Source: an uncultured Lachnospiraceae bacterium (GTDB lineage Bacteria; Bacillota; Clostridia; Lachnospirales; Lachnospiraceae). Taken from it: a stretch of 64,000 nucleotides of DNA. Positions 30,510 to 51,627 of this stretch are shown piece after piece (position 1 is the stretch's first letter; every line of letters starts with the position of its first letter). Both the position numbers and the translations under genes were made by a program. Under the pieces are notes generated by a model. That model saw only the letters and a list, made by a program, of their open reading frames with translations, made no database searches and had not been told where the DNA came from. The stretch is taken from positions 1 to 64,000 of the forward strand of contig CANOVJ010000012.1 of the NCBI GenBank assembly GCA_947570615.1, read 5' to 3'.

Positions 30510-31505
30510 ATGACAGGCGATATTTCAGGGAAAAGGGTGCTGTTTGTTACCACTAAAAATCTGGATTACATCCGTAACGCGCAGGAGCTTTCCCTGATCC
30601 GTAAAATGGCCGTCTGCTGTGATGTAATCGGCTCATATAACAGTCATTATCCCCTGCGCATCCTGATCGTTATATGGGGACTGATCACCAGATCCGCCGG
30701 CAGATATGACACCGTGTTCATCGGCTTTGCCCCGCAGCTGGTCCTTCCCCTTTTCCGAAAAAAATTTCTACGTCAAAGGGTGCTTATTGATTTTTTTATT
30801 TCTCTCTTCGATACCTTCTGTCTGGATCGAAAGCTTTTTAAACCCGCTGGTATTGTGGGACGTTTTCTCCATCGTCTGGACCGCGTTACCCTTTCTCTGG
30901 CGGATCTGGTCATCTGTGACACCCTTGCCCATGGAAGATTTTTTACAGAAGAGTTTCACGTCGCACCTTCCAGGCTCCATCCTCTGTACCTGGAGGCAGA
31001 CCGCCGCGTCTACCATCCTGTATCTGTTCAAAGACCGGAGCATCTGAAGGATAAACGCATCGTTCTCTATTTCGGCAGCATCCTCCCCCTGCAGGGCGCT
31101 GATGTTGTTCTGAAGGCAATATCCCTTGTGCTGAAAAATCAGAGCGGGCGTAAAAATATCTTTTTTTATTTTATCGGCCCCATAAAGGGAAAGGCTTTAC
31201 GCTCCCTTTGTCCCCATTCTGCGCTCGTACAGTACATTCCATGGCTTTCCCAGAAGGAGCTGGCCCGACTGATCGCATCGTCGGATCTGTGCCTCGCCGG
31301 GCATTTCAGCAAAACCATCGCCAAGGCCAGCCGTACCATTCCCGGAAAGGCCTTCATCTATCAGGCGATGGAAAAGCCCATGATCCTGGGCGATAATCCC
31401 GCCAATCATGAGCTGTTTGTCTCTGACAGGGATACTGTTTTTGTGGAGATGGGGAATTCCCGTGCGCTGGCGGATGCGATTCTTACCTTTTTTGAATACG
31501 ACTGA
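30510..31505 (+). CDS. GT-B fold (GT4-like) glycosyltransferase
   Basis: The 331-residue protein has a two-domain GT-B layout. The N-terminal domain includes KRVLFVTTKN; the C-terminal domain holds the nucleotide-sugar region IVLYFGSILPLQGADVVLKA and the family-4-like element GKAFIYQAMEKPMILGD with a downstream acidic residue. It probably adds a sugar to a surface or lipid acceptor. Its last 23 bases overlap the convergent GT2 gene at the end of the glycan operon, unusual in this window. Confidence 0.75.
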   Translation: MTGDISGKRVLFVTTKNLDYIRNAQELSLIRKMAVCCDVIGSYNSHYPLRILIVIWGLITRSAGRYDTVFIGFAPQLVLPLFRKKFLRQRVLIDFFISLFDTFCLDRKLFKPAGIVGRFLHRLDRVTLSLADLVICDTLAHGRFFTEEFHVAPSRLHPLYLEADRRVYHPVSVQRPEHLKDKRIVLYFGSILPLQGADVVLKAISLVLKNQSGRKNIFFYFIGPIKGKALRSLCPHSALVQYIPWLSQKELARLIASSDLCLAGHFSKTIAKASRTIPGKAFIYQAMEKPMILGDNPANHELFVSDRDTVFVEMGNSRALADAILTFFEYD

Positions 31506-32580
31506 GGATACACTGTGCTCTGTGAAGCAGATAAATCCCTGCCCCCGCTCTTGTTCGTCCCATAAATACCACAGCCTTCAGCCGCCATTCTGTTTTTTTC
31601 CATTCTACATTCCAAAACGCTGTGCGATAAGGCTCCATCCTCAGAACAGCTTCGAGCTCCTCTATCCTGGTACGGAGTTTTTGGGGATTACGGGGATGAA
31701 AAAAGGTCAGCCTGCAGCAGATACTGAACGATTTGATAATCCTGCAATAGTAAGCCTGTCGAAACTCCTCCCTCTCCTCTCCATCCCAGGCAGTGTCTCC
31801 ATGACATTTGTCCTGAAAGCTCCCCGTCATATAATCGTTCAGATAAGACCACACCCTGCAATCCTGCGCCACCCGGTCCGGCCTGTAGCTGTTGGTAATG
31901 GATGCGGGAACATATCGGTAATGATAGATCTTTTCCTTACAATATACCACCCTCCGGGCTTTTCCAAAGGCGGCCACATTAAAGACCATATCGTCAAGCA
32001 CCTTAAGCTCCGGCCTGAAGCAGAGCTCCTTTTCCAGCAGGAAATTTCTTCGGTAAAGCTTGTCCCAGGGAGCGGCCAGCGGAACCCCGGTTTTCGGATC
32101 GGCTGCCGGAAAGTACAGAACGCCTCTCTGCAGCTTCCGAATCGCTTTCGTTTCTGTCCAGACTGCCTCATGCGGGAAATGCTCCCATGCGCTCTCATGA
32201 TGACCTGTATTTTTCCACGCGTCAAAAAGGAGAATATCAGCGTCGGTATTCTTCTCAGACCTCTTTAGCAGAATGTCAATTGCCCCTTCCGCCAGCCAGT
32301 CGTCCGAATCCACAAAATAAATCCATTCTCCCTTCGCCAGATGAAGGCCAGTATTTCGCGCCGCCGCAACGCCCTCGTTCCTTTTATGGACCACCCGGAT
32401 GAAAGAGTGCCTGCGGGCGAAGGCATCGGCCAGCTCGCCGGAGCTGTCGGGTGAGCCGTCGTCAATTATGAGGATTTCGATCTGTTCACCGTCCGTCTGG
32501 TTCAGGATGCTGGCAAGACACTCCGGCAGGTATTGCTCTACCCGGTAGACAGGGATAATAAGGGATAATTGCGGGGGCAT
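31483..32580 (-). CDS. Family 2 glycosyltransferase
   Basis: The 365-residue GT-A enzyme has the GT2 start LSLIIPVYRVEQYLPECLAS, LIIDDGSPDSS, the chain RNTGLHLAKGEWIYFVDSDD with its DXD-like metal site, and a helical C-terminal part. I chose ATG at 32580 because GGAGG lies just upstream; the earlier in-frame ATGs lack sites. It is the last gene of the large minus-strand glycan operon and overlaps the convergent glycosyltransferase by 23 bases. Confidence 0.85.
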   Translation of the reverse strand: MPPQLSLIIPVYRVEQYLPECLASILNQTDGEQIEILIIDDGSPDSSGELADAFARRHSFIRVVHKRNEGVAAARNTGLHLAKGEWIYFVDSDDWLAEGAIDILLKRSEKNTDADILLFDAWKNTGHHESAWEHFPHEAVWTETKAIRKLQRGVLYFPAADPKTGVPLAAPWDKLYRRNFLLEKELCFRPELKVLDDMVFNVAAFGKARRVVYCKEKIYHYRYVPASITNSYRPDRVAQDCRVWSYLNDYMTGSFQDKCHGDTAWDGEEREEFRQAYYCRIIKSFSICCRLTFFHPRNPQKLRTRIEELEAVLRMEPYRTAFWNVEWKKTEWRLKAVVFMGRTRAGAGIYLLHRAQCILSRIQKR

Positions 32581-32614
32581 GTTTCCTCCATTGACATCAT
32601 AAGCCTCTGCTCTT

Positions 32615-32998
32615 TCAGGCATTTGCACACAACAGGGCTTTTACTTCTGCAACATCCTTCTCGAGATGTTCTACCCTCATCCTTAATCCGGACACCTGCA
32701 CTTCGAATAAAAGTGATTTATCCTGCACTCTTATTGCCTGGTTAAGCTTATCGACCAAATTAATATGATTCTCTGCCAGCAGCTGAATATTATGATTCGT
32801 CTCATTTTCCAGCGTCAGCTCCAGATTGGTTACTTTTTGCTTCACAACCTGCATATCATCCTGCAGTGCATGTACATCGTCCTTCAGCGTATGTACATCT
32901 TCCTTCAGTCCATGCACATCTTCCTTCAGCCCATGCACATCGTCATAAATTGCCCGCATATTCTCATAAAGCGCCTGTAATATATCCCTGTCTGTCAT
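32615..32998 (-). CDS. Small heptad-repeat coiled-coil protein
   Basis: The 127-residue protein is nearly all coiled coil. Residues 20-54 repeat the heptad D-D-V-H-x-L-K (DDVHGLKEDVHGLKEDVHTL and on), encoded by 21-bp tandem DNA repeats. No signal or membrane segment is seen and no enzymatic domain is recognised. It sits inside the glycan operon between two glycosyltransferases and could scaffold them. Repeat-number change would stretch the coil without breaking frame. Confidence 0.7.
   Translation of the reverse strand: MTDRDILQALYENMRAIYDDVHGLKEDVHGLKEDVHTLKDDVHALQDDMQVVKQKVTNLELTLENETNHNIQLLAENHINLVDKLNQAIRVQDKSLLFEVQVSGLRMRVEHLEKDVAEVKALLCANA
32869..32943 (-). repeat. 21-bp tandem repeats (heptad-coding)
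   Basis: Three full units of 21 bases begin at 32869, 32890 and 32911, with a partial fourth at 32932. They differ at only a few positions and share the core ATGNACATCNTCCTTCAG. Each encodes one heptad. Confidence 0.85.
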
Positions 32999-33226
32999 TC
33001 TCTCTCCTCCTCCTGACTGTTTTGAGTAAATGGCGAAAAGCCCGAACTGCAGATTTTCATACTTTTTTCGTCTGACATGAAAAACAGATACATCAGTGAA
33101 TCAGAAATAACTGATGTGGCGAATTGCTTTGTGATGGCATTTACTATAACACAATTTACAGGAAGATGCAATACTTTTTATGTTTTTTCGCAAAGATATT
33201 GTATACGTTTTCCCCATTTGAAACGC

Positions 33227-35041
33227 TTAATGGAATGAATCTGTAAACAGCGCCTTCTCCCAATACCCGGCCGCCTTTAATCTTCCATACTCCCTTCTGT
33301 ACTCCCGACAGCTTTTTCTGTATCCGGTATCGATCACCCAAAGCAGTCTTCCAAAGATTCTGGCCATCTCAAACACCTGTCCCATGCGACGCCGCGTAAG
33401 GATCCCCTTTCCATTGGCATCATCGAAGAGAAGAAGCCTTCCGGCCCGGAAAAGAGTAACCGGATGAGCGTTCATGTAGTGGGCCTGCACCTTCCTTTTC
33501 GCCGGCAGAAAATATCCGTTAAAGGTAAGGAGCTGAACCAGTAACCGGCAAATGGAATAAGGAGAGGCGTCCTGACGGATTCTGTACTTAAAGCCATCCA
33601 TGGGCCTGTCCTGCGCGCACATCTCCGTTGACGCTTCCGCCAAAAGGGAGGTCATATCCTGAAAAGAATATCCTCTCTGCTGAATCATCTGATGATATTT
33701 CGCGGCATTCACCCGCAAAAGCCAGTGGGGACCCTTGCAGAAATCCGTCACCGCCTGCGCGATCAGATACATATCTTTATAACGGAAACGGAACACCGCA
33801 ACCAGCAGGGCTGTCAATACCTGCCGCTTCGCCTTTCCTGCAGAATAATGCGGACAGTGCAGGGCATTCACGATTAACATATTCCTCAGATTATAATACT
33901 CATTGGCGGAAATTCGTCTGTGCCCGTTGGCTTCATGCCAGATTGCAATTCCGTTCATGGTTATGATCTGCCTGGCATTGCGCAGGCTGTACTCCACATC
34001 GTCCTCATGGATAAAAAGCGGTACGGGAAGATTATCCCTTCGCAGGATTTCTGACGGCACACAGCAATACCACCAGGCCGCATAATCTCTCTCATATACT
34101 TCCTCATTGAGAACCACATTGGAAAAACTCCGCAGGTCAAGGCCACGCCCATAGAACCGACATTTTCCTTCCCTCCAGAGGGCTCCGTTTTCGTGCTGAA
34201 TATATTTCTGATCCAGCCGGAGCATGGCTCCCGCAATGAAAGCCCCGTCGTATTTCCGCTTCAACAGGCGGAGCAGGGCGTAAGTGCGGGCAATACTTTC
34301 CGGCTCAATCTCCACGTCGTCGTCCATAAAAATTACATGGGTGATGCCCGTTTTCTCCTTTACCTCCATGATCTCCATCAGCCCTCTGGCAAAGCCGCCG
34401 GTTCCTCCAAGATTGGGATTATGGACAATACGAATCCCCGGCCGGGACAGCCTGTCAATGTCAAGGGTTCTTCCATTGTCTGTAACGAACACCTCCAGAC
34501 GTCCATAAAGAGGGGATGGCGGATTACAGAGAAAACTCTGCTCCAGCACCGCCAGATTTCTGAGCAGATATTGTTCTCTCTTAAAGGTACAGATGTTCAG
34601 AGCGATCTTCACATCCCTGGCACCGCCTCTTTCCGTTTCATACCGCGCGCTCCTGAAACAGGAACCCTCCTCAAGCGCTTCCAATTTGAAGTAGATCACT
34701 CCATTTTTACAGTCCGGAAAATCAATCCTTTCCTCAGCGAAGGCCTCGGACTGTAGTTTCGCTTCCAGAAGAATATCGTCGGTGAGCTCTGCGCCGTCAC
34801 GCCTGGTATGGATAATCCAAAGCAGAAAGGCTCCTTTAAATGTAATTGTAAGGGAAATCCGGGATAGATCGCAATATTTCTTCCATTTACCCATAGAAAA
34901 CGCGTTGAAATAAGTATTGGTGGCCAGCCCGGAGCCTTCGGAGAAAAGCAGCCCCTCCGGCGTCTGTGTGATCCGGCCGGTTTGTCTGGTATACAACAGT
35001 GCGTTTTCGGTGTACGGGGTCAGGATGGTCTGTAGGGTCAT
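33227..35041 (-). CDS. GlfT2-like galactofuranosyl-type glycosyltransferase
   Basis: The 604-residue enzyme has an N-terminal beta-rich domain (1-145), a GT2/GT-A catalytic core from LNICTFKREQYLLRNLAVLE with the metal motif FMDDDVEIEPE near residue 237, and NPNLGGTGGFARGL. The conserved FIHEDDVEYSLR and WHEAN near 340-370 follow, and then a helical C-terminus. This order matches GlfT2-type polymerising galactofuranosyltransferases. No UDP-galactopyranose mutase gene is in the window, so the donor is inferred. It follows the nitroreductase gene by 12 bases. Confidence 0.85.
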   Translation of the reverse strand: MTLQTILTPYTENALLYTRQTGRITQTPEGLLFSEGSGLATNTYFNAFSMGKWKKYCDLSRISLTITFKGAFLLWIIHTRRDGAELTDDILLEAKLQSEAFAEERIDFPDCKNGVIYFKLEALEEGSCFRSARYETERGGARDVKIALNICTFKREQYLLRNLAVLEQSFLCNPPSPLYGRLEVFVTDNGRTLDIDRLSRPGIRIVHNPNLGGTGGFARGLMEIMEVKEKTGITHVIFMDDDVEIEPESIARTYALLRLLKRKYDGAFIAGAMLRLDQKYIQHENGALWREGKCRFYGRGLDLRSFSNVVLNEEVYERDYAAWWYCCVPSEILRRDNLPVPLFIHEDDVEYSLRNARQIITMNGIAIWHEANGHRRISANEYYNLRNMLIVNALHCPHYSAGKAKRQVLTALLVAVFRFRYKDMYLIAQAVTDFCKGPHWLLRVNAAKYHQMIQQRGYSFQDMTSLLAEASTEMCAQDRPMDGFKYRIRQDASPYSICRLLVQLLTFNGYFLPAKRKVQAHYMNAHPVTLFRAGRLLLFDDANGKGILTRRRMGQVFEMARIFGRLLWVIDTGYRKSCREYRREYGRLKAAGYWEKALFTDSFH

Positions 35042-35053
35042 TGGGGCTCCTGT

Positions 35054-35650
35054 CTATCTGATATGAATCACTGCATTTTCTTTTCTGCAATACGAACCTT
35101 TCGTTTCTTCTGCATACCCCAGAGCAACACAAATCCACACAATGTGTTCCCTGGGTACGCCATAGGAATCCAGTCTGCTTCTGATTTTTGTCTCGTCGCT
35201 GATATCCTTTAATGGATTCGTCAGCAGCGAGGCGATCCCATAGGAGCCCGCCGCAAGCATCATATTCTGGGCGGCACAGGAAACGTCCTGAATCCCATAA
35301 GGATTTCTTCTGTCATTGCTCAAAAGAATCAATGCCCCGGGAGACCGGAATCCGTCAAATTTAATTTCTTTTTCCGCTGTTACTTTCTGTACAATATTTT
35401 CCAGCGCTTCTATTTCAGAGCCCCTGCGGATGACCGTAAATTTCCACGTCTGACAGTTATGCCCGCTTGGCGCGTAGATTCCCGCCCGGGCAATCATCTG
35501 CAACTCTTCCCGCGGGATGTCCGCATCAGAAAACGCCTCAGGAGTAGAAAGCTCCAAAATATTTTTTATAAAAGGGGTGATTATCTCTGTTTCCGAAACA
35601 GGAACCTCTGTTTGCCCCCCCCCGGTTATGCCCGCTGAATATCCTTTCAT
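35054..35650 (-). CDS. Second nitroreductase-fold protein, phase-variable candidate
   Basis: The 198-residue nitroreductase-family protein is paralogous to the C-terminal domain of the ligase upstream. They share RAGIYAPSGHN, LSNDRRNP (LVSNDRRNP in the fusion), SCAAQN and HIVW. The usual FMN-phosphate-binding RRSIRKF is missing: here the matching place reads LELSTPEAF. It may therefore work as a heterodimer partner or need another cofactor mode. Residues 10-12 are Gly-Gly-Gly encoded by a G(9) tract; a slip of one base would abolish the protein almost from its start. At nine G it is in frame. GGGGGAG precedes the ATG. Confidence 0.8.
   Translation of the reverse strand: MKGYSAGITGGGQTEVPVSETEIITPFIKNILELSTPEAFSDADIPREELQMIARAGIYAPSGHNCQTWKFTVIRRGSEIEALENIVQKVTAEKEIKFDGFRSPGALILLSNDRRNPYGIQDVSCAAQNMMLAAGSYGIASLLTNPLKDISDETKIRSRLDSYGVPREHIVWICVALGYAEETKGSYCRKENAVIHIR
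35615..35623 (-). repeat. G(9) tract at the 5' end of the nitroreductase gene
   Basis: Nine C on the plus strand are three GGG codons in the gene, 27 bases after the start codon. Nine keeps the frame open; eight or ten would close it. Confidence 0.92.
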
Positions 35651-35665
35651 ATCTTTCTCCCCCAG

Positions 35666-37728
35666 TCACTCAACATAATTTACCACATCCATCTTTTTGG
35701 CAAGTACACTCCCCGATTCCACCGGATAGCCCAACGCAATCATCGCCCACACGATATGCTCCCCGGGAATACCATAAGAATTCAGAACCTCTCTGATCTC
35801 AGGTTCATCACAGAGCCTCATCAGCGGATTGAGCCATACGGATCCGATCCCGTAAGAATGGGCCGCCAGCATTATGTTCTGGGCCGCGCAGGAGGCGTCC
35901 TGTATCCCGTCGGGATTACGCCTGTCATTGCTCACCAGTATCAGACATCTGGGCGACTCGAAGCCGTAAAAATAAACCTTTTTGGACAATGCCGCTTTTC
36001 GTGTGACCTCTTTCAGCTCCATTATCCTGTCCCGGCTTTCAATCACTGTAAAACGCCAGGTTTGAAGATTATGTCCACTGGGCGCATAGATCCCGGCCCG
36101 GCAGATCATATCCAGGATTTCTGCCGGAACTTCTCTGTCCGTAAACTTTCTGATGCTTCTTCTGGTCAGAATGGTCTGCATAATCGGATTCATCAAATAC
36201 AGTCTGTCACGATTCTCCCACATGGACAGAAGCTCTTTCCTGTCAATCTTCTGCATCCGGTTGCGCGGGATTGCATCCGTTACGATAAATCTTTTCGGGA
36301 TCTTGTACCGCTCCAGCTTATCCGAGAGAAACTTTATCAGCCCTTCCTCCGTATAAGTATTTTTTGTCGTCAAAAACAATACCGGTATCTGTCCCAGAAT
36401 TCCATCCGGGTCCTCCACACCAATGCAGGCGCACTCACGGACAGAGTCATATTGTCCGGCGGTCTCCTCCACCTCAATGGGCGAAATCTTTTCTCCTCCC
36501 ACATTGATGATGTCATCCGCACGGCCCAGCATATATATGTAATTATCCTCATCAATATACGCCATATCCCCTGTCAGAAGCCATCCGTCAACAAGAGTCT
36601 GCGCTGTCAGCTCCGGTCTGTTCCAGTAACCTGCCATCTGCATGTCGCCTTTCAGCGCCATTCTGCCAGGGTGAGCGGCATCGCTCTTTATGGTATTTCC
36701 TTCCGCGTCAATAATCTTAACCTGTACCTGCGGAAGCGTTCTGCCGAGCGAACCAATTTTCACAGGATCGTCCGCCACATCGGATACAACACAAAAAATA
36801 CCCCCCCCGACTCCGAACTCCCCCATGTATTGTGGATCCGTACCTTTGGCAGTAACTCTGTAATCTCTTTTCTCTGGCGGATACTCAGGGAACCGGCGCT
36901 GAACTCTATAAAGCGCATCCCGCCCAGCACCCTCACGAACGCATCCTGCATCTGGGATTTCATGACCTCATAGGAGGCCGGCACCGCCGCCAGCGCATTA
37001 CATCCAAATCCGGTCACATTATTTTCTACTTCCTTCGCAAAGGTGAAACCATTTTGAAGGACTACTGTTGCTCCCTGATAGAGCACGGCCCGCAGAACCC
37101 GAAGGGCAAAGGAATGGTTCAGCGGAAGGGGCAGCAGCAGACAGTCGTCCCGGTCAATTCCTATCCCTTCAATCGTATTGGAAAGAATATGAAAGACTGA
37201 TCTGTAAGTCAGAATAACCCCTTTGGGCTTACCGGTTGTTCCTGTGGTAAAGAGCAGCTCCGCGACATCCTCTGCCGCCGGTTCTATCCGGATTTCCTGC
37301 AGAGCGGAATCCTTATCTGTGATAATATCCTGCCTCCAGGTATCCGCCTGTCTGTACATTTCCCGCAGGGACCGTATCCGGCATCGTCCGGCATATTCTT
37401 TCATGGGCTTGTCCGTCAACAGCAGCTTCGCCCCGGCATCCTCATAGACGGCTGCAATATTTTCCGGCGTTCCATTCTTGTCAATAAACACCGCGATTGC
37501 ACCGCAGGCCTGAATCGCCATATAGGCAACTACCATCTCCGGTTTTGACACCGCGGAAAAGCACACCCGATCCCGCGCCGCTATGCCCTCCTCCCTCAAA
37601 AGACTGGCCATTCCGGCAATCTTTTCGCACAGCTCCAGGTAGGTTAACTGTTCCTTCTTAAATATCACTGCCTGTTTGTCAGGACAGAGCTGTGAAAGGT
37701 CGATCAGACGGTTTAACAGATTTTTCAT
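35666..37728 (-). CDS. Adenylating ligase-nitroreductase fusion, frameshifted at a G(8) tract (OFF)
   Basis: Two overlapping frames (36760-37728 and 35666-36826) join into one 687-residue protein if the G(8) tract at 36801-36808 gains one G. The N-terminal half is an AMP-forming acyl/aminoacyl ligase: LLFTTGTTGKPKGVILTYR (A3), NTWGSSESGG (A5), then past the tract YIYMLGRADDIINVGGEKIS (A7-A8) and RNRMQKIDR (A10 Lys). From about residue 513 a complete nitroreductase domain follows with LTRRSIRKF and RAGIYAPSGHN. As read, translation stops after 322 residues and loses A7-A10. It is DltA-like in context, loading the nearby carrier protein, but the substrate is unknown. Either phase-OFF, a fresh mutation, or a homopolymer error. 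Confidence 0.85.
36801..36808 (-). repeat. G(8) tract breaking the ligase-nitroreductase frame
   Basis: Eight G on the coding strand follow GAGTC. The upstream frame then hits a stop at 36760. Nine G (or six) would read Glu-Ser-Gly-Gly-Gly-Ile-Phe (Glu-Ser-Gly-Gly-Ile-Phe with six) and continue into the C-terminal frame. Confidence 0.92.
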
Positions 37729-37742
37729 GGTAAATATCCTCG

Positions 37743-39340
37743 TTATTTTTTGCCTAATACCAGACAGGCATCGATGGGCAGTTTTTTCTCTGCCGCCTGT
37801 TCAGTTGAAACTCCATTTGCAACAATATATTCTTCCTTCACAATCTCAAAACCTGCCTCTGATACCATTTCTTTCACATGGGCTATACTGTGAAAAAGAA
37901 AAATATGGGCAGGCGAGGGGGCGTTGATGGGAAAAAGCGCATATACTTTTCCCTCCGGAGTCAGCATGCGGTGAATACTCTTAAGCATCCCCTCCGGATC
38001 TTCAATGTGCTCTAAAACTTCCTGAACGACAATAAAGTCATATTTCTCATCCTCAGAAAGACGAGTTGCATCCTGACACCTTAACTGATATTCCCCCCCC
38101 GACACCTATAACGGTTCATATAATCCTGTGTCATTGCAATGGATGTCTCGGATACGTCAACGGCGTCATACTGATGAAAATGTTGATGGTTGTATGCCTC
38201 CAGAAAATACTTGCCATGTCCGGGACCTATTTCGAGATAACGGTCTCCACTCACATTTTGAATCAATTCTGCATAAAAACGATGGATTTTTAAAACTGTC
38301 ATCCAGAGATATTCCGCCACCGACAGCCCCAGCATATACAGTTTCATTCGCTCCGGATCTGCATAAATGTAGCGGTCTACTTCCTCAAAGCTATGGCATC
38401 TGTAATCCTCGTGCTCCTTAAAATACCTGGTTTCCTCCATTACACTGTTCGTATAAAAAATATATCCCTTTACGATCTCATCCATCGAATACTTTTCTGT
38501 AAAATACTGCAGTTCCTGTTCGAACCGCTGTTTCTCCTCATCTGTCCACTCCTTCCTGACCCTTTTCACGGAAAAGACCTGTCCGGGAAGCTCATGCAAA
38601 ATTTTATCTACAAGTAATTCGGTCAGAGTCTGCTCATTCACCTTATCCCTCCTCGTTCTGTAAATATATTCATCTACTGCGCTGACAAACCTTGCCCCCA
38701 GACGCTGATGCAGATTGAGAGAAGCCATATTAGCAGAAGAAATATAACCGCAATATTTCGTATAGCCTCCGTTCTCCGGCAAAGCCATTGCGTTCAGCAG
38801 GCCGTTATACAGTGGATATGCCGCCATTTTCCCTTTTATCCCAGGCCGGGTAACGCCAAGCATAATCTGAAAAATACCCACCCCCGAATCCGGGTTTATG
38901 ATTATGTATCCCAACAGATCATTTTCCTTACGCGCTGTAAAGACTGGCATATTCTGATCTCTGCACCAGTCAATATAGGCCTTCTTTACTTCTGCGGCTC
39001 TGTTCTGGTCAAATTGCTGTTCAAGATGAAAACGTCTGTCGGCTTCAAAGGATTCACAGGCCAGCTCGTATAAATCATTCGTATATTCATGGCTGAACCC
39101 CAGGAGAATATCCGGCAGAGCATTTTTTATCTGATTACGCGCTTTCGCAGTGGCTTTCAGATTGATCTCAACGAAAATAAAGCGTTCATGGAATCCCGGC
39201 CCCGCCTCAGACAACCCGGTAAGTTTTTCCGCCTTATTGGCCTCAATCTGCTGAATGATATATTCCGTATCATCAGGCACGTAAGTCTCCCGCACAGAAT
39301 ATCTCTTCAGTGTGCCTCCATGAAACGACAGAATTTCCAT
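37743..39340 (-). CDS. GNAT-methyltransferase fusion, frameshifted at a G(8) tract (OFF)
   Basis: Frames 38081-39340 and 37743-38105 combine into one 532-residue protein if the tract at 38093-38100 had nine G. Residues 60-230 are a GNAT-like acetyltransferase (KMAAYPLYNGLLNAMAL, SSANMASLNLHQRLGARFV). After a helical linker, a class I SAM methyltransferase follows (YLEIGPGHGKYFLEAY, DAVDVSETSIA, then beyond the tract YDFIVVQEVLEHIEDPEGML). As read, the protein stops after 419 residues with the methyltransferase cut after its second strand. Position between the carrier protein and the ligase suggests it acts on the carrier-bound group or on the sugar. Confidence 0.83.
38093..38100 (-). repeat. 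G(8) tract breaking the GNAT-methyltransferase frame
   Basis: Eight G follow TGTC on the coding strand. The upstream frame reads Arg-Gly-Gly-Asn-Ile-Ser and stops. One extra G gives Arg-Gly-Gly-Glu-Tyr-Gln and continues to the end of the methyltransferase. Confidence 0.92.
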
Positions 39341-39352
39341 ATATTGACCTCT

Positions 39353-39580
39353 TTATCCCTGTAGTCTCTCAACCATTCTGGCCATTCCTGCGATGGAATT
39401 GAAATTCTCTTCGATGATTTCTTCATAAGGAATGATAATCCCAAATTCCATAATCAGAGCCGCAATAATCCCTGTGATCGTCAGCGAATCCAGAATACCA
39501 TCATCCACCAGCGCATCCGATGCTGAAAAATCAATCTCCGGAAATTCTTCTGATAAAAGTGTTAAAATTTTTTCTTCCAT
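39353..39580 (-). CDS. Acyl/peptidyl carrier protein (DltC-like context)
   Basis: The 75-residue acidic protein has the phosphopantetheine attachment motif DDGILDSLTITGII with Ser32. Length and helix pattern match stand-alone carriers such as DltC. It lies between an MBOAT gene (23 bases upstream) and the GNAT-methyltransferase gene (12 bases downstream), and close to an adenylating ligase. This is the order of parts of a Dlt-like transfer system. A 4'-phosphopantetheinyl transferase would have to come from elsewhere in the genome. Confidence 0.88.
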   Translation of the reverse strand: MEEKILTLLSEEFPEIDFSASDALVDDGILDSLTITGIIAALIMEFGIIIPYEEIIEENFNSIAGMARMVERLQG

Positions 39581-39603
39581 AATTCTGTCTCCTTTGGTAA
39601 AAT

Positions 39604-41202
39604 TTAAAATTGCATATACACAAAATTGCTGGCATCATATCCCGGCCCATACATTCCAAAAATGATAATGCTGAAAATGGCCGCATAATAAACTGCCCAT
39701 CTGAATACGATATTCTTCCTGGCAATACTTTCCCGTATCTGAATCCCTTTCTCCTTCATCAGTGACACACAAAATACAATGAAAATCGAAATCATGGACA
39801 GCCAGAAATCCTGTCTGTCCAATCCATATGTATAGAGCGACTGATCAAAAAACACCCACACATTAAACTCTGAAAACATATTTCTGATCATTCCCCACGC
39901 AGATGATACGGAGTCTGTCAGAGTAAACACCTTAGGAATAAATGCAGCTAAAATGAATGTCCTCATAACCTGGAAAAGCTGCCACTCCCTCTTCTTTTCC
40001 TTAATGCATAATCTCTTCCTCAAATCCACATATCTGTTCTTCAACAGTGTACTGCTGATGATGATTCCTCCATTCCAGATTCCCCAGATCACATGTCCCC
40101 ATCCGGTTCCATGCCAGACTCCTGTTGCAATCCACACGACAATCAGAGGAACCACAGCAGCAACATTCCTCCCCGCTTTATTTCCATACTTTCCTTTCGC
40201 CTTTTTAATCAGATTTGCAACAAATTTTGATGCAAAGACCGGCATATACAGATAGTCCTTAAACCAGTTTCCCAATGATATATGCCATCTTCTCCAATAT
40301 TCCTCCACGGATCTCGAAAAATATGGTTGCCGGAAATTCATATCCAGTTCAATCCCCAGAATCTGCGACATTCCTCTTGCCATATCGACACATCCCGAAA
40401 AATCCGTATAAATCTGGATTGCCGCGAAGAATGTTGCTATTACAATAACAAAACCTGCCTGATTCTCCCAGTCACCATACACAGAATTTACAAACACTGC
40501 CAGTCTGTCCGCAACCACCAGCTTTTTGAAATATCCCCACAGCATCAGCTGAATCCCAAAGCATGCACGCTCATAACTGAATCTGTGTCCTTCTGTCAAC
40601 TGATGCGCCAGTCGGTTATACCGGGCAAACGGCCCCTGAAGAATATGAGGGAAGTACAACACAAACAGCAGATATTTGAAGAAGTTTCTTTCCGCTCTGT
40701 ATTTCTTCCAGTACACATCGAGTATGTAGCCCACTGTAGAAAATGTGTAGTAGCTTATTCCCAAAGGAATAATGACTGAGATTTCAGATAACTGAACTGT
40801 CCGTACTCCCAGACTGGTCATTGCTCTCTGCAGTAAATCAATAATTATATGGGTAAACTTGGTATAGCTTAAGAGCCCCAGGACAATGAGCAGTGTTATA
40901 ACCAGTATTCTTTTGCAGATTTTTCCACACTTTTCTTTTGCTTCCTTCTCCTGCTCTTCATCCAGTTCGCCGCCGGCTGTCATATCATTGAGTTTGCCGT
41001 GTCTTCTGTCGATCAGCAGTGCCGAATAATAAGTAGCAAATGATGTGATCAAAACAAAAGGGATGAATTTTAAACCGGCCATGCAATAGAATATACCACT
41101 GGCAATCAGCAGGATAATCCATCTTTTGTTCAGTGGGAAAATGAAGTATAAGGTTATTGTAATAGTTAGAAAAATGATGAATTGGATGGTGGTGAATAAC
41201 AT
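39604..41202 (-). CDS. MBOAT family O-acyltransferase (AlgI/DltB-like)
   Basis: The 532-residue polytopic protein has about ten to twelve membrane segments. The MBOAT signature QPYFSRSVEEYWRRWHISLG...YLYMP lies near residue 300, and the catalytic-type His in WIATGVWHGTGWGHVIWG near 365. LQGPFARYNRLAHQL fits too. It is the candidate membrane enzyme that moves the carrier-bound group across the membrane towards an extracellular glycan hydroxyl. Base composition becomes AT-richer from here towards higher coordinates. Confidence 0.92.
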   Translation of the reverse strand: MLFTTIQFIIFLTITITLYFIFPLNKRWIILLIASGIFYCMAGLKFIPFVLITSFATYYSALLIDRRHGKLNDMTAGGELDEEQEKEAKEKCGKICKRILVITLLIVLGLLSYTKFTHIIIDLLQRAMTSLGVRTVQLSEISVIIPLGISYYTFSTVGYILDVYWKKYRAERNFFKYLLFVLYFPHILQGPFARYNRLAHQLTEGHRFSYERACFGIQLMLWGYFKKLVVADRLAVFVNSVYGDWENQAGFVIVIATFFAAIQIYTDFSGCVDMARGMSQILGIELDMNFRQPYFSRSVEEYWRRWHISLGNWFKDYLYMPVFASKFVANLIKKAKGKYGNKAGRNVAAVVPLIVVWIATGVWHGTGWGHVIWGIWNGGIIISSTLLKNRYVDLRKRLCIKEKKREWQLFQVMRTFILAAFIPKVFTLTDSVSSAWGMIRNMFSEFNVWVFFDQSLYTYGLDRQDFWLSMISIFIVFCVSLMKEKGIQIRESIARKNIVFRWAVYYAAIFSIIIFGMYGPGYDASNFVYMQF

Positions 41203-41278
41203 TATTTTCGTCTCCCACGATTATTTTCTATTATATCTCTCAGCATATATTTAATACTTTTTTAATACCATTTATTTT

Positions 41279-42310
41279 TTATAAACTCATAGAATTTATT
41301 TTTCTTAAGATATGCCCTGAAAAACTCGTACACATTCTCATGCATAAAGACAATATTATAACTAACAAAATATAACTAAAAGGATCTATCTGAATGAATT
41401 TTATAATTTTATTGTTATTCAATACAACAATTACGACTGTATGCAAAAAATAAATTGGAAGACTTAATGAACAAAGCCAATGCAATTTCAGACCAACATA
41501 ATCTAAAACCCATCCAATCCCGTCCAAATAATGAAACAAGAATATTAATAATCCTAAAATAAATATAAATATGAAATCGCCTTCTACTGTAACATCACAT
41601 AACAGTATATATGTTCCCCCTATAAAGCACAGTATCTGTAATATTAAGGAAATCTTAAGTAGTGGGTTAATTATATACTGCTGGCATATTAACCCTACGA
41701 TAATTCCGATCCCAGTATCCATAAATCCTCTTATTATCCCAAATGGAATAATTCCTACCATAATTTCCAAAGTGTAATTTAATGAATGTATTTCTGATGC
41801 ATTGTATAGTGTAGCCCCTAAAAAAACTGTTAACCAAAGGATTACATAATAAACCTCTTTCTTGTTCCATTTAAGTAATGAAATATAAAATACGGAAGCC
41901 ACCAGCCAAACCGGTATATACCAAACCTGTGCCCATGGTAACCATAGTGAATATTGATCTCCAAATAAATATGGAAAAAAGAGTAACGATTTCATTATAT
42001 GCCATACGGATATGAATTGCCTATTTTCCCCCCCCCAATAAATAATTCCTCCCAAAATTAATATCAGGTAATATCCATAAACCTTTTTTAATTTTAAAAG
42101 AGCAATTCTACACAAAGAATAAGTATAGTACCTTTTTCTATTACAGCAAATCAGGTATCCACTCAAGATAAAAAACATCTCCACACACAAGTAACCCTGT
42201 GGTACCAGTTTCCATTCATAATGCAATAAGGCTATTACAATTGCTCCTACAAATTTTAAAACATCAAAAGCATAGTTATGTTTCATATTAATGATATTCC
42301 TTATCCTCAT
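41279..42310 (-). CDS. Acyltransferase 3 family membrane protein, phase-variable candidate
   Basis: The 343-residue protein with about ten membrane helices fits the acyltransferase 3 (OafA/WecH-like) family: FDVLKFVGAIVIALLHYEW at the start, with a His of the usual type, and GYLCVEMFFILSGYLI. It should O-acetylate or O-acylate sugars. A G(9) tract (42028-42036) encodes Trp-Gly-Gly in an otherwise AT-rich gene; at nine G the frame is open. Its ATG overlaps the stop of the SGNH gene by one base (TAATG). An internal ATG eight codons in is an alternative start. Confidence 0.85.
   Translation of the reverse strand: MRIRNIINMKHNYAFDVLKFVGAIVIALLHYEWKLVPQGYLCVEMFFILSGYLICCNRKRYYTYSLCRIALLKLKKVYGYYLILILGGIIYWGGENRQFISVWHIMKSLLFFPYLFGDQYSLWLPWAQVWYIPVWLVASVFYISLLKWNKKEVYYVILWLTVFLGATLYNASEIHSLNYTLEIMVGIIPFGIIRGFMDTGIGIIVGLICQQYIINPLLKISLILQILCFIGGTYILLCDVTVEGDFIFIFILGLLIFLFHYLDGIGWVLDYVGLKLHWLCSLSLPIYFLHTVVIVVLNNNKIIKFIQIDPFSYILLVIILSLCMRMCTSFSGHILRKINSMSL
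42028..42036 (-). repeat. G(9) tract inside the acyltransferase 3 gene
   Basis: Nine C on the plus strand give Tyr-Trp-Gly-Gly-Glu in the protein. The run stands out because the gene around it is AT-rich. A one-base slip would truncate the protein to roughly its first third. Confidence 0.92.
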
Positions 42311-43971
42311 TACCTTGCTTCATGATCAATAAGATAATTTTCAAATTCTCTTAAACTTTTTGATATTAATGCTTTATTCCGTTTTGCTATATGCTCTGTA
42401 CTACATGTATCGAAGCATACACTATCTAATACGAGCCGTTTCCTATTATCGTAAACGACAATGTTCATTCCCCGCTTTCCTACTGAATAATCCTTGTTCC
42501 CTATCTTTATCTCCGCCTTTGACCCAAAATAACAGCCAGAACTGGAAACTGAATAAGATACTTGACAATTCCTTATTTCATTCTCGTAAATGATTGTTTC
42601 ATTAGACAGTCCTTCGTATTTCACTTTTCCATCTTCTATAACTGCCACATATGAATATCTAAATACATCATCAAAGATTGTTTTTAGTCCTAATTTATGA
42701 AGCAAAAACTTATCCTCTTCACTTAATCCTGCATACATATCATCCGCCGCCGCGATAAATACTGATATCCCGTTCCCCAATTTTGATATACTCGCTATGT
42801 AGGAGCCAAAACTATTCTCTAATTCTAATAATGCTACACTTCGCAATAACATATAAATATTTAAATCTTTGTCCCAATTATCTGACCCTCCTGATGGTAA
42901 TTGAAATCTATCCGCCAAATATTTTCCTAAACAATTGGTCACTTTTTCTGTTCCTAATAAATTTAAATGAACTCCTCCATCACATGTATCCGTTGACCAA
43001 TCTATTTCGGCATTTACATCATATTGCATATCAAAAAAATCAATATTATATCTATTACAGATATGCGATGCAATTGAATGTTTTTCTTCTGTCCATGACC
43101 CCCAAGTAACACTGGGTAATGCTGATACTGGTATCTTAACCATTACTAACTTAATATTTCTTTCCAGACACAATTCTTTGATTTTAAGTAACCACATCAG
43201 AGAATCTGCCGAAATCTGGTTATTGATATATTTTGACGTCTTTGTCCTCTCTATATTATATATACCATTGTTATATTCAGACAATTCAACCTCTGCAAAT
43301 GCAGTATTATAAAAATCAGCTCTTTCATTACGTTCAGCTTCTGTCGCTCCTCCCCCAACCTGTGCTGTTAACATATAATAACCTTTAGGGAAAAAATTGT
43401 TGTTTCTGACTAACGCGGAAAAATCTGCTTTAGATAACTTTTTCCAACGCTCATGATACTTGATTAATGGCACCAACGCATCTCCCAGAGAATGATTATC
43501 TTCTGATTGCGAAGCATAAGCTTTGGCAAAATCAATTTTATTTTTACTTATAGGCATTGTATCCAGCATATATCGCCATAACCCATCCGAAACCTTATCA
43601 TAAAATAACGACGAAATCTCCAGCGTAACTACTTTAGGACTCTGGCTTTTTAATGCCTCCTTTAGAACAAAAAAACTTACTGCAAAAGGTTGCTGATTTG
43701 TAGACAGGTTATACCCTTTAATTCCTTGGTTTCTATACATTTCCATCGGCGAGATACCAAAACGACTTGTACTGGCACCTAAACTGATTACATCTAACGT
43801 ATTCTTTTCCTCTGCATAAAATCCTGTTAGTATTCCCTGCATAGGATCTAGAATACCTGAATTTGTATAATCCCACTTTGGTATAAATATCTGCTGTAAA
43901 AGATTAAAGCAAATAAAAAATCCTGATATAAAAAGAAATATTTTTAAGACTCCGGCAAATTTTGTTTTCAT
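42310..43971 (-). CDS. DltD/AlgJ-like SGNH protein with C-terminal ILEI/FAM3-like domain
   Basis: The 553-residue protein has an N-terminal membrane anchor (about 9-27) and an extracytoplasmic SGNH-type domain. ISLGASTSRFGISPMEMYR near residue 62 supplies the nucleophile Ser, and CDGGVHLNLLGTEKV near 335 the Asp/His pair. This resembles DltD and AlgJ/AlgX partners of MBOAT enzymes. From about residue 385 a second domain reads GISVFIAAADDMYAGLSEED, LGLKTIFDDVFRYSYVAVI, then KRGMNIVVYDNRKRLVLDSV. These are the pieces of the ILEI/FAM3 fold in swapped order. It follows the WavE-like gene after a 92-base gap with no gene. Confidence 0.75.
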   Translation of the reverse strand: MKTKFAGVLKIFLFISGFFICFNLLQQIFIPKWDYTNSGILDPMQGILTGFYAEEKNTLDVISLGASTSRFGISPMEMYRNQGIKGYNLSTNQQPFAVSFFVLKEALKSQSPKVVTLEISSLFYDKVSDGLWRYMLDTMPISKNKIDFAKAYASQSEDNHSLGDALVPLIKYHERWKKLSKADFSALVRNNNFFPKGYYMLTAQVGGGATEAERNERADFYNTAFAEVELSEYNNGIYNIERTKTSKYINNQISADSLMWLLKIKELCLERNIKLVMVKIPVSALPSVTWGSWTEEKHSIASHICNRYNIDFFDMQYDVNAEIDWSTDTCDGGVHLNLLGTEKVTNCLGKYLADRFQLPSGGSDNWDKDLNIYMLLRSVALLELENSFGSYIASISKLGNGISVFIAAADDMYAGLSEEDKFLLHKLGLKTIFDDVFRYSYVAVIEDGKVKYEGLSNETIIYENEIRNCQVSYSVSSSGCYFGSKAEIKIGNKDYSVGKRGMNIVVYDNRKRLVLDSVCFDTCSTEHIAKRNKALISKSLREFENYLIDHEAR

Positions 43972-44063
43972 GTTTTTCCTTTCACTCAGGGCAGGGACAA
44001 GAAACTACACACTTATTTGCAAACTCCAATTAATTATTCTAATCTGAAAAATATTTTGAGATT

Positions 44064-45089
44064 CTAGCAATTTATAAATTCTTTCAGTGCCTTTCCCATA
44101 CTACTGTTTAGCATTTTTTTTCGTATTTTACGAGGGATAAATAATATTACAAATCGATTAAGCGATCTCCTGAATCCGGCAAATGAAGCGCTATATCTCA
44201 AGTCAAAAACTAATGCTGACCATTTGATAAAAAGCCAATCTCTAAAGGACTCTTTTCCTTCAAAATCATGTCTGGAATAGCATCGCGCCCTTTCCTTTGG
44301 AGCCCCCTTGAATGGTTCAAGGTGAAATTTATACGGTAAAATAATAGTTCCGCTCGGTAAAAAAGCATTTCTTTGTTTGTTCCATCTTAAGTTTATATCC
44401 CATGTATTAACTAAATACATATATTTTTTTAATGCATTAAAACTATCCTGTTCGGTATTCTTTAACTGCCATCCTTGTTTCACCAGGTAATGCTTAAATA
44501 ACTCGCTTTCCGGAGAAATAAGATAATTCCGAAAATCTTCCTTACTTTGATTTAATTTCTTCAGCATCCATAATTGGCTATCTGTGTGGGTAAGATCCTG
44601 CAAAGGCATACTATAATAATTTTTCAATATTTCTTTCCAACCACAAAGAAACATATCCGATGGATGATAAAATCGATCTGCTCGTGTAAAACAATTTGTA
44701 GTCAGGATTCTGATTGAATTGTTTCTTTTGAAGTAGCGGCTATTTATAATTTTATAAAGCCTTTTTGTATTACACCATTGATCATTTCTTATTTTTACTA
44801 CGAAAATATCTTTAGATTTTATGCACTCCAACCCATTCTTTACCGTATATATTTGTCGGTTTAAATTAAAATAGCCTGGATTAATAACATCCTTATTATA
44901 TATACACTCTATATTATATATCTCTCTATACCCACTAATCAGAGCTTCGGTTTTCTTTTTATCGCTGATATATGTTGAAATTATTACCTGTTCTATTTTA
45001 TTTTTTATAGCATTCAGGCTCCTGAAAATTTTTGCATACGCATTACCGGCATAAGGCCCATGTAATAGAACAACTACCTTATTCTGCAT
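44064..45089 (-). CDS. WavE-like glycosyltransferase
   Basis: The 341-residue protein matches the pattern of the WavE lipopolysaccharide-synthesis family: VVVLLHGPYAG at the start, IYTVKNGLECIKSKDIFVVK near 90, KIRNDQW with a DXD-like acidic residue, and DMFLCGWKEIL with DSQLWML later. It probably transfers a sugar to the surface glycan. The gene is clearly AT-rich compared with the housekeeping genes. Its start overlaps the preceding glycosyltransferase by eleven bases. Confidence 0.75.
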   Translation of the reverse strand: MQNKVVVLLHGPYAGNAYAKIFRSLNAIKNKIEQVIISTYISDKKKTEALISGYREIYNIECIYNKDVINPGYFNLNRQIYTVKNGLECIKSKDIFVVKIRNDQWCNTKRLYKIINSRYFKRNNSIRILTTNCFTRADRFYHPSDMFLCGWKEILKNYYSMPLQDLTHTDSQLWMLKKLNQSKEDFRNYLISPESELFKHYLVKQGWQLKNTEQDSFNALKKYMYLVNTWDINLRWNKQRNAFLPSGTIILPYKFHLEPFKGAPKERARCYSRHDFEGKESFRDWLFIKWSALVFDLRYSASFAGFRRSLNRFVILFIPRKIRKKMLNSSMGKALKEFINC

Positions 45090-46788
45090 ATTTTTCCTCC
45101 ATATTTATCAGGTTTTCTTTATAAAAATAATTTGCCAACATATTTCTTCTGAATTTCTCTTTTTTAATATTTCTCGCATTTACACAGTGACCACATTCGG
45201 TATTTCTTTCTGTTTTGTTTCTAAATGGCAAATTATATATTTGGGCCTTAATTCCATAATTAACAACAATATCTGCAAAAGTCATACCTATGGAATCCCG
45301 TTCAATATAAATACCTTTTATAAAAAAAGGAACTTCATTCTCGATAATATTAACAAATTCAAATTGTACATTTTTTTCTGCAAAGCAAATTACTGCTCCA
45401 TCTTCGAATTTATGTAAAATACTTCCTGCAATACTTTGCATCTTATTTATATTTTGAGGACTTGTCTTGAAATTCACTAATATAACATTATTCCTCCGGT
45501 CAATTATACTTTCATCAATTAATCCATAATAGTTATTTTCATCCACTATCAAACAATTATAATTATTAGATTCGCATACTACTTTACAACTATTATATAT
45601 TGCTAACCGTTTATCAACTGTCTCCGAATAATTTGCTTTTTGCAATAAACCATTATATTGGTAATCAAGGATTCTCACCCTCTCATCAGAATCTGATCTG
45701 TAAAAATAAAGAAGCTTTTTCAGCAAATCATCTTCTCTAAAAGGATCAAATGTCATTATGTTAACAACTTCTTCCATATAATCTGAAAATCCACAATATT
45801 TAGATGTTATTACGGGTACCCCATGGCAGACAGATTCCACCACAGACAGGGAAAGACATTCATATGTAGACGCCAGTATTCCTAAATCACTTATTGCATA
45901 TATCTTAACTTTTTCCTCATATGTCATAAAATCAAAAAAATGTATATTAAAAATATACTTTTCCGGAATTAAATCATAAATTTCCTCTCTAAAATCAATA
46001 CCCGTTACTGAATTTACAGCACTATTACCCCCCAAAAACAATATTGCATCTTCTCCAGTAATATCTAAAAATCTAACAAACTGTTTTACAAGTAACTCCT
46101 GATTTTTTCTCCCTTCAATTCGGCTAATACAACAAATTATAAATTTATTTCCAAAGCAGCTTATATCATATCTCCGGCTCACATCCTTAACAAGCTCTTC
46201 TCTGCTCTTCATCATAATACTAAGTGGATGCAATATAGTTATTACATCATTTAACTTATAATTTTGAATTACATATCCACGCATAAAGCTTGAGGGTGCC
46301 ACATTCAAATCAGAAAGTTTCATTTGTGACTTTTCTCTGGCAAAGCACTCTCTGATAAATTCCGGAGAGAATCTTACCGGAACTTTATCATTCCATTCAT
46401 AACATTCTCTGGAAGCGGTATGATGAACTGTGATAAATCGGGTATTACTCAATTCATTTGACGGCGTTTCATATCTGTAAAATAATGCTTCCAATCCTAA
46501 CGACATATAATCAGTACATTCCACAATATCAGGTTTTATTTCTTTTAAATAATTTAATACTTCATTCCCTATTTCATGCGGTTTTCCCGGCTTTAACAGG
46601 TATAGCACAACATGCTTATTTCTTAATAATCTACTTTCTTTATCGCATACAATAGTTAAAATATAGATTTCATAGTCATTAGTCCTTTTTAGAATTTGCG
46701 TCACCAATATATTTAAATACTCCGCGACTCCACCATGCCCCCAAAAAAGACCAAACTCATGTGTTACGAAGACAATTCGTTTTTTCAT
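45079..46788 (-). CDS. Long GT4-type glycosyltransferase
   Basis: The 569-residue protein has a GT-B core in its first 400 residues: HEFGLFWGHGGVAEYLNIL near the start, FIICCISRIEGRKNQELLVKQF near 220, and the GT4 signature LGILASTYECLSLSVVESVCHG near 305 with the usual acidic residues. The last 150 residues form an extra domain I do not recognise, ending in a Cys-containing ECGHCVNARNIKK stretch. The ATG at 46788 is preceded by GGAGGA and directly follows the stop of the nucleotidyltransferase. AT-rich like its neighbours. Confidence 0.82.
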   Translation of the reverse strand: MKKRIVFVTHEFGLFWGHGGVAEYLNILVTQILKRTNDYEIYILTIVCDKESRLLRNKHVVLYLLKPGKPHEIGNEVLNYLKEIKPDIVECTDYMSLGLEALFYRYETPSNELSNTRFITVHHTASRECYEWNDKVPVRFSPEFIRECFAREKSQMKLSDLNVAPSSFMRGYVIQNYKLNDVITILHPLSIMMKSREELVKDVSRRYDISCFGNKFIICCISRIEGRKNQELLVKQFVRFLDITGEDAILFLGGNSAVNSVTGIDFREEIYDLIPEKYIFNIHFFDFMTYEEKVKIYAISDLGILASTYECLSLSVVESVCHGVPVITSKYCGFSDYMEEVVNIMTFDPFREDDLLKKLLYFYRSDSDERVRILDYQYNGLLQKANYSETVDKRLAIYNSCKVVCESNNYNCLIVDENNYYGLIDESIIDRRNNVILVNFKTSPQNINKMQSIAGSILHKFEDGAVICFAEKNVQFEFVNIIENEVPFFIKGIYIERDSIGMTFADIVVNYGIKAQIYNLPFRNKTERNTECGHCVNARNIKKEKFRRNMLANYFYKENLINMEEKYAE

Positions 46789-46789
46789 A

Positions 46790-47536
46790 TCATCCTCCGA
46801 TGTAATTATCAAATCTCCATTTCAATAAAAACTTCTCCAAATCACCCGGAATCCCCAGCCCATACATTCCATTATCTTCACTTCCGATATTATAAAACCC
46901 AACCCTTTTCCCATCGCATATCATCTCGTTGTACACTGGCGCGACATAAAACTCCCCGTTAGACCTGATCCCCTTATCGATCATCTGATACGCGTACTTC
47001 ACAAAATCAGATCCCTTTCTGAAATTATAAATTCCCACCGTCGCCTCGTTGGAAATCACTTCTTTTTCACGGACCAAAGTCACAAGCCCGTCCTTATCAA
47101 ACTGAATAAAAGACCATTTGGGATCGTCCGCATACATCGTCATAATCAGACCGTCCTTTTCGCCCATCGATACTAAGTATTCATTGATATCAATATCCAC
47201 ATACTGGTCTGAATTGGCAATCATCAGGCTGTCATCGTTATCTATGTATTTTTCCGCCAGAAGAACGGTACAGGCCGCTCCCTCCGTTACCTGATCGACA
47301 GAAACTACTGCACATCCGGGAGCAATTTCTTCCAGTCTCTTTTTCAAATCATACTTCTCCAGATGCTCCTGCAGACACAGATAAATAAACCTGTGTTCAC
47401 ATTTCGGAGTAATATTCTGTGTCACTCGTGCAATCATGGGCTCCCCATGAACATCAATCAACGGTTTGGGCATTACATACCCTTCCTTGGCAAAACGGCT
47501 CCCTCTGCCTGCCATAGGTATTACAATATTCAGCAT
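46790..47536 (-). CDS. Nucleotidyltransferase family protein (sugar/polyol-phosphate type)
   Basis: The 248-residue protein has the nucleotidyltransferase signature IPMAGRGSRFAKEGYVMPKPLIDVHG at its start, the ANSDQYVD metal site near residue 108, and a Lys-Trp-Ser (PKWSFIQ) later. It should activate a sugar- or polyol-phosphate with a nucleotide. Its paralog at 47847-48593 lies one gene upstream, with a cupin between them, suggesting a linked short pathway. The exact substrate cannot be given. Confidence 0.83.
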   Translation of the reverse strand: MLNIVIPMAGRGSRFAKEGYVMPKPLIDVHGEPMIARVTQNITPKCEHRFIYLCLQEHLEKYDLKKRLEEIAPGCAVVSVDQVTEGAACTVLLAEKYIDNDDSLMIANSDQYVDIDINEYLVSMGEKDGLIMTMYADDPKWSFIQFDKDGLVTLVREKEVISNEATVGIYNFRKGSDFVKYAYQMIDKGIRSNGEFYVAPVYNEMICDGKRVGFYNIGSEDNGMYGLGIPGDLEKFLLKWRFDNYIGG

Positions 47537-47539
47537 TAC

Positions 47540-48593: not shown

Positions 48594-48604
48594 TGTATTA
48601 TCCT

Positions 48605-49234: not shown

Positions 49235-49245
49235 AAGTGCAACCT

Positions 49246-51596: not shown

Positions 51597-51627
51597 CATG
51601 ACTCCCTGTCGAACTCTGTCCCTCATA

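Follow-up and report, generated by a model that had tools for sequence, protein, structure and literature searches.

The window analysed here is a stretch of 64,000 nucleotides from an uncultured Lachnospiraceae bacterium (GenBank assembly GCA_947570615.1, contig CANOVJ010000012.1, positions 1 to 64,000). It contains a predicted acylation module, lying in a putative surface-polysaccharide cluster, in which four genes carry long runs of G. The module is encoded on the minus strand and reads, in transcription order, as a 553-amino-acid protein, a membrane protein of the acyltransferase-3 family, an MBOAT membrane O-acyltransferase, a 75-amino-acid carrier-like protein, a GNAT-methyltransferase, an acyl/AMP ligase fused to a nitroreductase, and a second nitroreductase. 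This order and the spacing of the genes suggest that they form one transcript. The G runs lie in the second nitroreductase (35615-35623, nine G, 27 nucleotides into the coding sequence), the ligase (36801-36808, eight G), the GNAT-methyltransferase (38093-38100, eight G), and the acyltransferase-3 gene (42028-42036, nine G). All four are G on the coding strand and read as C on the plus strand. The only other G or C run of at least eight in the window is an eight at 21820-21827, inside cheR, and a single run of seven occurs at 55113-55119.

As assembled, the second nitroreductase (35054-35650, 198 amino acids, PF00881, E = 1.9e-17) and the acyltransferase-3 gene (41279-42310, PF01757, E = 2.4e-8) have open frames at their tracts, and the ligase and methyltransferase are shut. 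Frame arithmetic leaves all four genes open with nine G and just 3 to 12 codons open past the tract, in each of the four, with eight. In every case, a pure run of at least eight G lies in coding sequence and a one-unit change in its length toggles the frame. The ligase (35666-37728) falls into two pieces (36760-37728 and 35666-36826), both matching the AMP-binding family PF00501, and the match is cut at the tract, with profile positions 9-334 in the upstream piece and 328-384 in the downstream piece, which also matches PF13193 and PF00881. The GNAT-methyltransferase (37743-39340; pieces 38081-39340 and 37743-38105) has its methyltransferase match cut in the same way, at profile positions 8-59 upstream (weak, below cut-off) and 77-119 downstream; in the upstream piece PF00583 and PF13489 narrowly miss their cut-offs, and PF13489 exceeds its own downstream. 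The assembly would represent one state of the module, with the ligase and methyltransferase predicted to be off and the second nitroreductase and acyltransferase-3 on. A sequence-only reading of this DNA had listed coding-strand runs of 9, 8, 8, and 9 G with the cheR run as the sole other eight, which the run count bears out; its statement that nine G opens all four frames while eight breaks two genes is likewise borne out by frame arithmetic and the cut Pfam domains.

We consider it highly likely that the four runs are contingency tracts, at which slippage phase-varies a dlt-like acylation module. Of the explanations considered, poly-G phase variation fits best, because the breaks sit exactly at the runs with intact frames behind them, because runs of at least eight G show an excess of frame breaks across the genus, and because tract lengths differ between species. 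The chance expectation for such runs was estimated from a control set of twenty 20-kb stretches of this genome (400 kb in total), which contain 687 runs of five G, 101 of six, 5 of seven, and none of eight or more. The whole genome (4.05 Mb) has 25 runs of at least eight (15 of eight, 9 of nine, and 1 of ten), along with 48 runs of seven before A or T (runs of seven before C fall outside this count). Markov simulations trained on the 400-kb control predict, per 4 Mb, 14 runs of eight and 1 of nine at order 5, 64 and 9 at order 4, and 84 and 22 at order 2; orders 4 and 2 fit the control worse, over-predicting runs of six and seven. At the genome's density, a Poisson model gives at least four runs of eight or more within 6422 bases a probability of 1e-7, rising to 6e-5 across the roughly 630 such stretches. 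Long G runs thus appear to be in excess, on account of the runs of nine and longer under the order-5 model, the empty control, and the clustering.

The genus comprises 37 genomes including this one (G-numbers below label genomes and L-numbers loci). Runs of at least nine G occur in 30 of them, this one included, with up to 17 per genome. The genus set consisted of the stretches around 136 listed runs of at least nine in the other 29 genomes (two of the twelve nine-G positions of G032 were left out); the genus search covered runs of nine and longer, with exact eights outside it. Our frame test required an open reading frame (ORF) of at least 180 nucleotides on both sides of a run. It took in 162 runs of at least eight G (five near locus ends were dropped), 72 of which lacked such ORFs. 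A frame shift at the run was present in 52 of 90 G runs of at least eight, as against 45 of 441 A/T runs of at least seven and 137 of 1259 G runs of five or six (Fisher, 1.6e-21 and 2.5e-24, respectively). Divided by length, 5/13 runs of eight, 25/51 of nine, 16/19 of ten, and 6/7 of eleven or more were shifted. Among the fetched genus runs of at least nine, 91/132 were nines and 32/132 tens. For those on the coding strand, 36/58 were out of frame; free slippage would be expected to leave about two thirds out of frame, which this fraction approximately matches. An earlier, looser ORF rule gave 34/136 shifted G runs of at least eight, 56/1532 of five or six, and 4/107 A/T runs of at least eight, and it misread as open some shut genes whose tract lies close to the start, as seen in signal-peptide genes.

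By the ORF rule, eight tracts of the window's own genome are shifted, two of them in the window. The others lie in membrane proteins (L001:5133 and L006), methyltransferases (L007:3661 and L014), a sulfatase-type gene with Pfam matches in both pieces (L015), and L017. A WcbI-like polysaccharide gene (L011) is open at its tract. At L007 (contig C9:14500-34000), the nine-G run of the out-of-frame methyltransferase lies 12 kb from the genome's only ten-G run, which lacks ORFs on both sides.

Differences in length between species were found at several homologous sites. A tract in what appears to be the signal peptide of a secreted protein is present in five species, with 8 G (open) in this genome and 9, 9, 9, and 10 (all shut) in G033, G019, G030, and G006, respectively. 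In seven other readable species (G001, G002, G003, G004, G018, G029, and G032) the same gene has no run of at least six at this place, counting forward-strand matches only. This secreted protein family has no Pfam match, and its tracts are at L001:3408 (contig C1:11407), L103, L134, L201, and L243. An MBOAT pair differs at a conserved motif, with nine G (open) in one member and eleven (shut) in the other, and an 84%-identical pair has nine versus ten. There are 13 pairs with tracts at aligned places. These were found via tracts in both members and therefore say nothing about how often tracts are kept.

Several observations weigh against phase variation or narrow the evidence for it. Four shared sites have equal lengths (10/10 in a 79%-identical pair, 9/9 in pairs of 80% and 77% identity, and 9/9 in a 51%-identical membrane-protein pair that is shut in both species), and length variants were seen between species only, with none within a species. 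The number of eight-G runs in this genome is close to the order-5 expectation, under which the excess is confined to nine and longer, and the low-order Markov models yield no excess of long G runs. Some of the genome's eight-G runs are probably chance occurrences, since three interior ones (L003, L004, and L005) are called open on the strand opposite the G. The controls reveal a floor of about 10% in the frame caller. A codon-usage caller scored 5/7 tracts as shifted in this genome and 10/14 in the genus, having judged as in-gene only 7/25 and 14/136 tracts; it was unclear for 16/25 and 118/136, and the ORF rules were used instead. The strand of L015 was misplaced by the caller, and the shift at L017 may reflect two neighbouring glycosyltransferase 2 genes, as each piece has its own match to that family. 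The ligase orthologue in G036, a genome that is 59% complete, is a single open frame of 687 amino acids without a tract, which suggests that the tract in the ligase is not old. Relatives carrying a tract at the matching position were not found for any of the four window genes; the closest orthologue of the ligase is the one in G036.

Comparison with G036 also bears on whether the ligase and methyltransferase are instead recent pseudogenes, each broken a single time at a mutable run and now decaying irreversibly, an explanation we think quite improbable. A recent break and a reversible one look the same in one genome, and nonsynonymous divergence (pN) of the ligase is slightly higher behind the tract (0.209) than before it (0.162). 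The methyltransferase reverses this order, with 0.126 behind and 0.159 before; synonymous sites are saturated in three of these four comparisons. Conservation is roughly equal on the two sides of the breaks, and this similarity indicates that the breaks are young relative to the divergence. Irreversible decay is further disfavoured by the commonness of shifts at runs of at least eight G throughout the genus and by the purity of tracts at sites shared by diverged species.

A little less probable still is that the breaks come from errors in the consensus sequence of long homopolymers, the genes being intact and fixed. The assembly is a draft in 112 contigs, and long G runs might err more than A/T runs. 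The latter, however, show no excess of breaks: 6/66 A8 runs and 0/3 of A9 or longer were shifted, within the caller's floor, though few A/T runs reach nine, and the codon-usage caller found 0/18 A8 runs shifted. The least credible alternative is slippage of the RNA polymerase or ribosome on the G run, which would yield some full-length protein from every allele so that the run tunes or rescues expression while the DNA need not switch; polymerase slippage on poly-A homopolymers is described in Buchnera (PMC2831843), but in G036 the ligase reads as a single uninterrupted frame that lacks a tract, and the between-species length differences at some homologous sites are not what a programmed site would favour.

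Under poly-G phase variation, replication slippage would add or remove G, the frame would move, and the gene would be turned reversibly off and on, as the lengths and frames suggest. The ligase would activate an acyl group to be held by the carrier protein, the methyltransferase and nitroreductases may tailor this group, and the membrane acyltransferases would transfer it to a polymer that an ABC-2 transporter exports. Loss of MutS was considered as a cause of slippage and rejected: MutS1 is over its cut-off in 35/37 genomes of the genus, this one included (MutL lay outside that search). With MutS1 present, tract length rather than MutS loss would drive slippage.

The ligase, the methyltransferase, and probably the nitroreductase seem to serve one acyl group. 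A shut ligase should consequently mask the methyltransferase and nitroreductase. Two outcomes would then be expected while the ligase is off, depending on the state of acyltransferase-3, and eight while it is on, for a maximum of about ten. The sequence-only reading had proposed poly-G phase variation with four independent switches and 16 states. Its phase variation holds as the best reading, and the pattern reaches beyond the window in the genus frame breaks and the between-species lengths; its 16 independent states would be an overcount should the genes act in a single pathway.

The remaining module genes and the neighbouring cluster suggest what would be switched. The carrier-like protein (39353-39580, minus strand) has weak NCBIfam carrier-protein matches of at most 27.4 bits, all under cut-offs, and contains a DSL motif; we regard it as acyl-carrier-like. 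The MBOAT protein (39604-41202, minus strand) matches PF03062 (E = 2.5e-12). The 553-amino-acid protein adjoining the acyltransferases (42310-43971, minus strand) matches only PF15711 (ILEI; E = 8.9e-7, with no single stretch significant) and returned zero matches in an NCBIfam search. In dlt D-alanylation, DltA is the ligase, DltB the MBOAT protein, and DltC the carrier, and in the window a ligase, a carrier-like protein, and an MBOAT protein likewise adjoin, the latter two resembling DltC and DltB. The module is predicted to work like dlt but fails the Dlt family cut-offs (DltB model, 147 bits against a cut-off of 375; DltC, 21.8 against 68) and differs from dlt in its extra methyltransferase and nitroreductases. 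With the G036 ligase rather than the window ligase as the query, DltA is not among the best 25 of 113 NCBIfam matches, the best being a fatty-acyl-CoA ligase subfamily, under its cut-off.

On one side, the module is flanked by glycosyltransferases (30510-31505 on the plus strand, 31483-32628 and 33227-35041 on the minus strand). The other side contains, all on the minus strand, glycosyltransferases (45079-46812 and 52424-53482), nucleotidyltransferases (46790-47536 and 47847-48593), and an ABC exporter made up of an ATPase (50859-51626, PF00005) and an ABC-2 membrane protein (51628-52407, PF01061). Since glycosyltransferases, nucleotidyltransferases, and an ABC-2 exporter surround the module, a surface polysaccharide is the likely target of acylation; the module's substrate and phenotype are putative. 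The earlier assignment of these genes to acylation of a surface glycan thus finds support in the Pfam families and in the glycosyltransferase and exporter neighbours.

At E = 1e-40, the ligase is found in 3/37 genomes of the genus (this one, G036, and G033, the last at 33% identity), and a search of genome_contigs with a GNAT-methyltransferase piece gave zero relatives. Two tract-flank patterns were compared with viral contigs; one had a single chance match (L294), which lacks blastn similarity to the module, and the other had no match. In G036, the ligase and methyltransferase adjoin FabH-, FabG-, FabD-, and carboxylase-like genes, as judged from translations read by eye without a family search, and such neighbours would fit a dedicated acyl pathway. 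One of the FabH-like genes of this related acyl cluster contains a nine-G run (L213:7928) with its frame open. The G036 GNAT-methyltransferase (L213:10611-12224) is split by frame changes, though not at a G run.

Which families carry tracts was assessed from 119 pieces of 96 genus genes called on the coding strand (one piece of 120 was dropped), considering the 25 leading of 101 Pfam families. Methyl-, acyl-, and glycosyltransferases lead among tract genes and not among random genes. The tract genes include methyltransferases (8 for each of four overlapping models), acyltransferase-3 (6), FkbM methyltransferases (5), hexapeptide transferases (5), glycosyltransferase 2 (4), AraC-type regulators (4), DUF2142 (3), and MBOAT (3). 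A control of 119 genes drawn at random from this genome gave counts of 3 and 2 for methyltransferase models and 2 for epimerase; the other named tract families fall outside the leading 25 of 249 and so number at most two each. AraC regulators and response regulators appear in both lists. In this comparison the control comes from one genome and the tract set from many, and two pieces of one gene may both count.

Long G runs also occur outside the genus. Runs of at least ten G were found in 70/200 Lachnospiraceae genera, represented by one genome each. Of 20 runs of at least nine taken from six other genera, 4 were shifted and 2 open; another 13 did not have an ORF on each side, and 1 lay at an edge. 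Among control runs from the same genera, shifts were seen in 10/63 cases (G5-6), 8/40 (A7), and 1/1 (A8 or longer). Set against these controls, the counts do not extend the frame result beyond the genus. At L298-L317, from six other Lachnospiraceae genera, 8 of 20 runs of at least ten G lie inside an ORF of at least 120 amino acids and 8 are 10 to 179 bases before one. The runs before ORFs hint at switches in promoters or leaders.

Neisseria and Helicobacter belong to other phyla. Homopolymer phase variation in these bacteria (PMC5320596, PMC2823697) likewise involves tracts within genes whose length sets an on or off state; the genes are different, and the variation was measured there whereas here it is deduced from sequence. 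Poly-G loci of Campylobacter share with those described here G runs mostly of nine and ten within genes, many loci per genome, and homologues with and without a tract (PMC6321876). In that paper 52% of tracts have nine and 30% ten G, at a cut-off of seven rather than the nine used here, and tracts of at least eight are named as shown to switch. The present case differs in concerning a Lachnospiraceae genus with MutS1, with switching read from lengths and frames. We think it probable, with somewhat less confidence than for the window module, that the whole genus, with its MutS1, runs a Campylobacter-like phasome in which many tracts lie in surface-glycan decoration genes and one strain can take many surface states, and that in other genera runs stand more often before genes, as a second mode.

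A survey of 99 genomes reports poly-G runs of seven or eight as over-represented in nine of them (PMC2831843). In the gut commensal Akkermansia, an invertible capsule promoter also switches surface polysaccharide at random (PMC13343947). The mechanism shown there is DNA inversion, as opposed to tract length inside genes, although the discussion of that paper also considers that mononucleotide repeats of an acyltransferase gene in cps1 might undergo strand mispairing. For inversion, a recent review cites Clostridioides (PMC11868660). Our search of the open-access literature did not find poly-G switching in Lachnospiraceae; this negative is weak evidence but agrees with the sequence-only reading, which had held slippage not to be the mode usually described for the family. 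The family it named is correct, since relatives assigned at that rank are mostly uncultured Lachnospiraceae. The mechanism is known from Campylobacter, and its apparent occurrence through this Lachnospiraceae genus, not found in the literature searched, suggests an unexpected branch.

Immune cells, phages, and neighbouring microbes all encounter the polysaccharides on the surface of gut bacteria. If these genes do phase-vary, one Lachnospiraceae strain would be a mixture of surface types, and assemblies, which record one length, would make switched-off genes resemble pseudogenes. Poly-G switching would also enter a branch where, in the literature consulted, DNA inversion has drawn the attention. 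The named tract sites can be checked in existing reads.

The cheR run lies at a conserved Gly-Gly near the CheR C terminus and is open as assembled. By frame arithmetic, a longer or shorter run would exchange the final 25 to 46 codons. Among 40 CheR relatives, the motif was found in 18, and all 18 have at most five G at the same place. The run may act as a solitary chemotaxis switch or may be a chance occurrence. A comparison with the genome that carries the closest CheR relative did not find the cluster there, window positions 33000-50000 having only three matches of about 40 bases. Elsewhere in the genus, contig C58 of G029 carries, near its end, two runs of at least nine G that start eleven bases apart (21532 and 21543).

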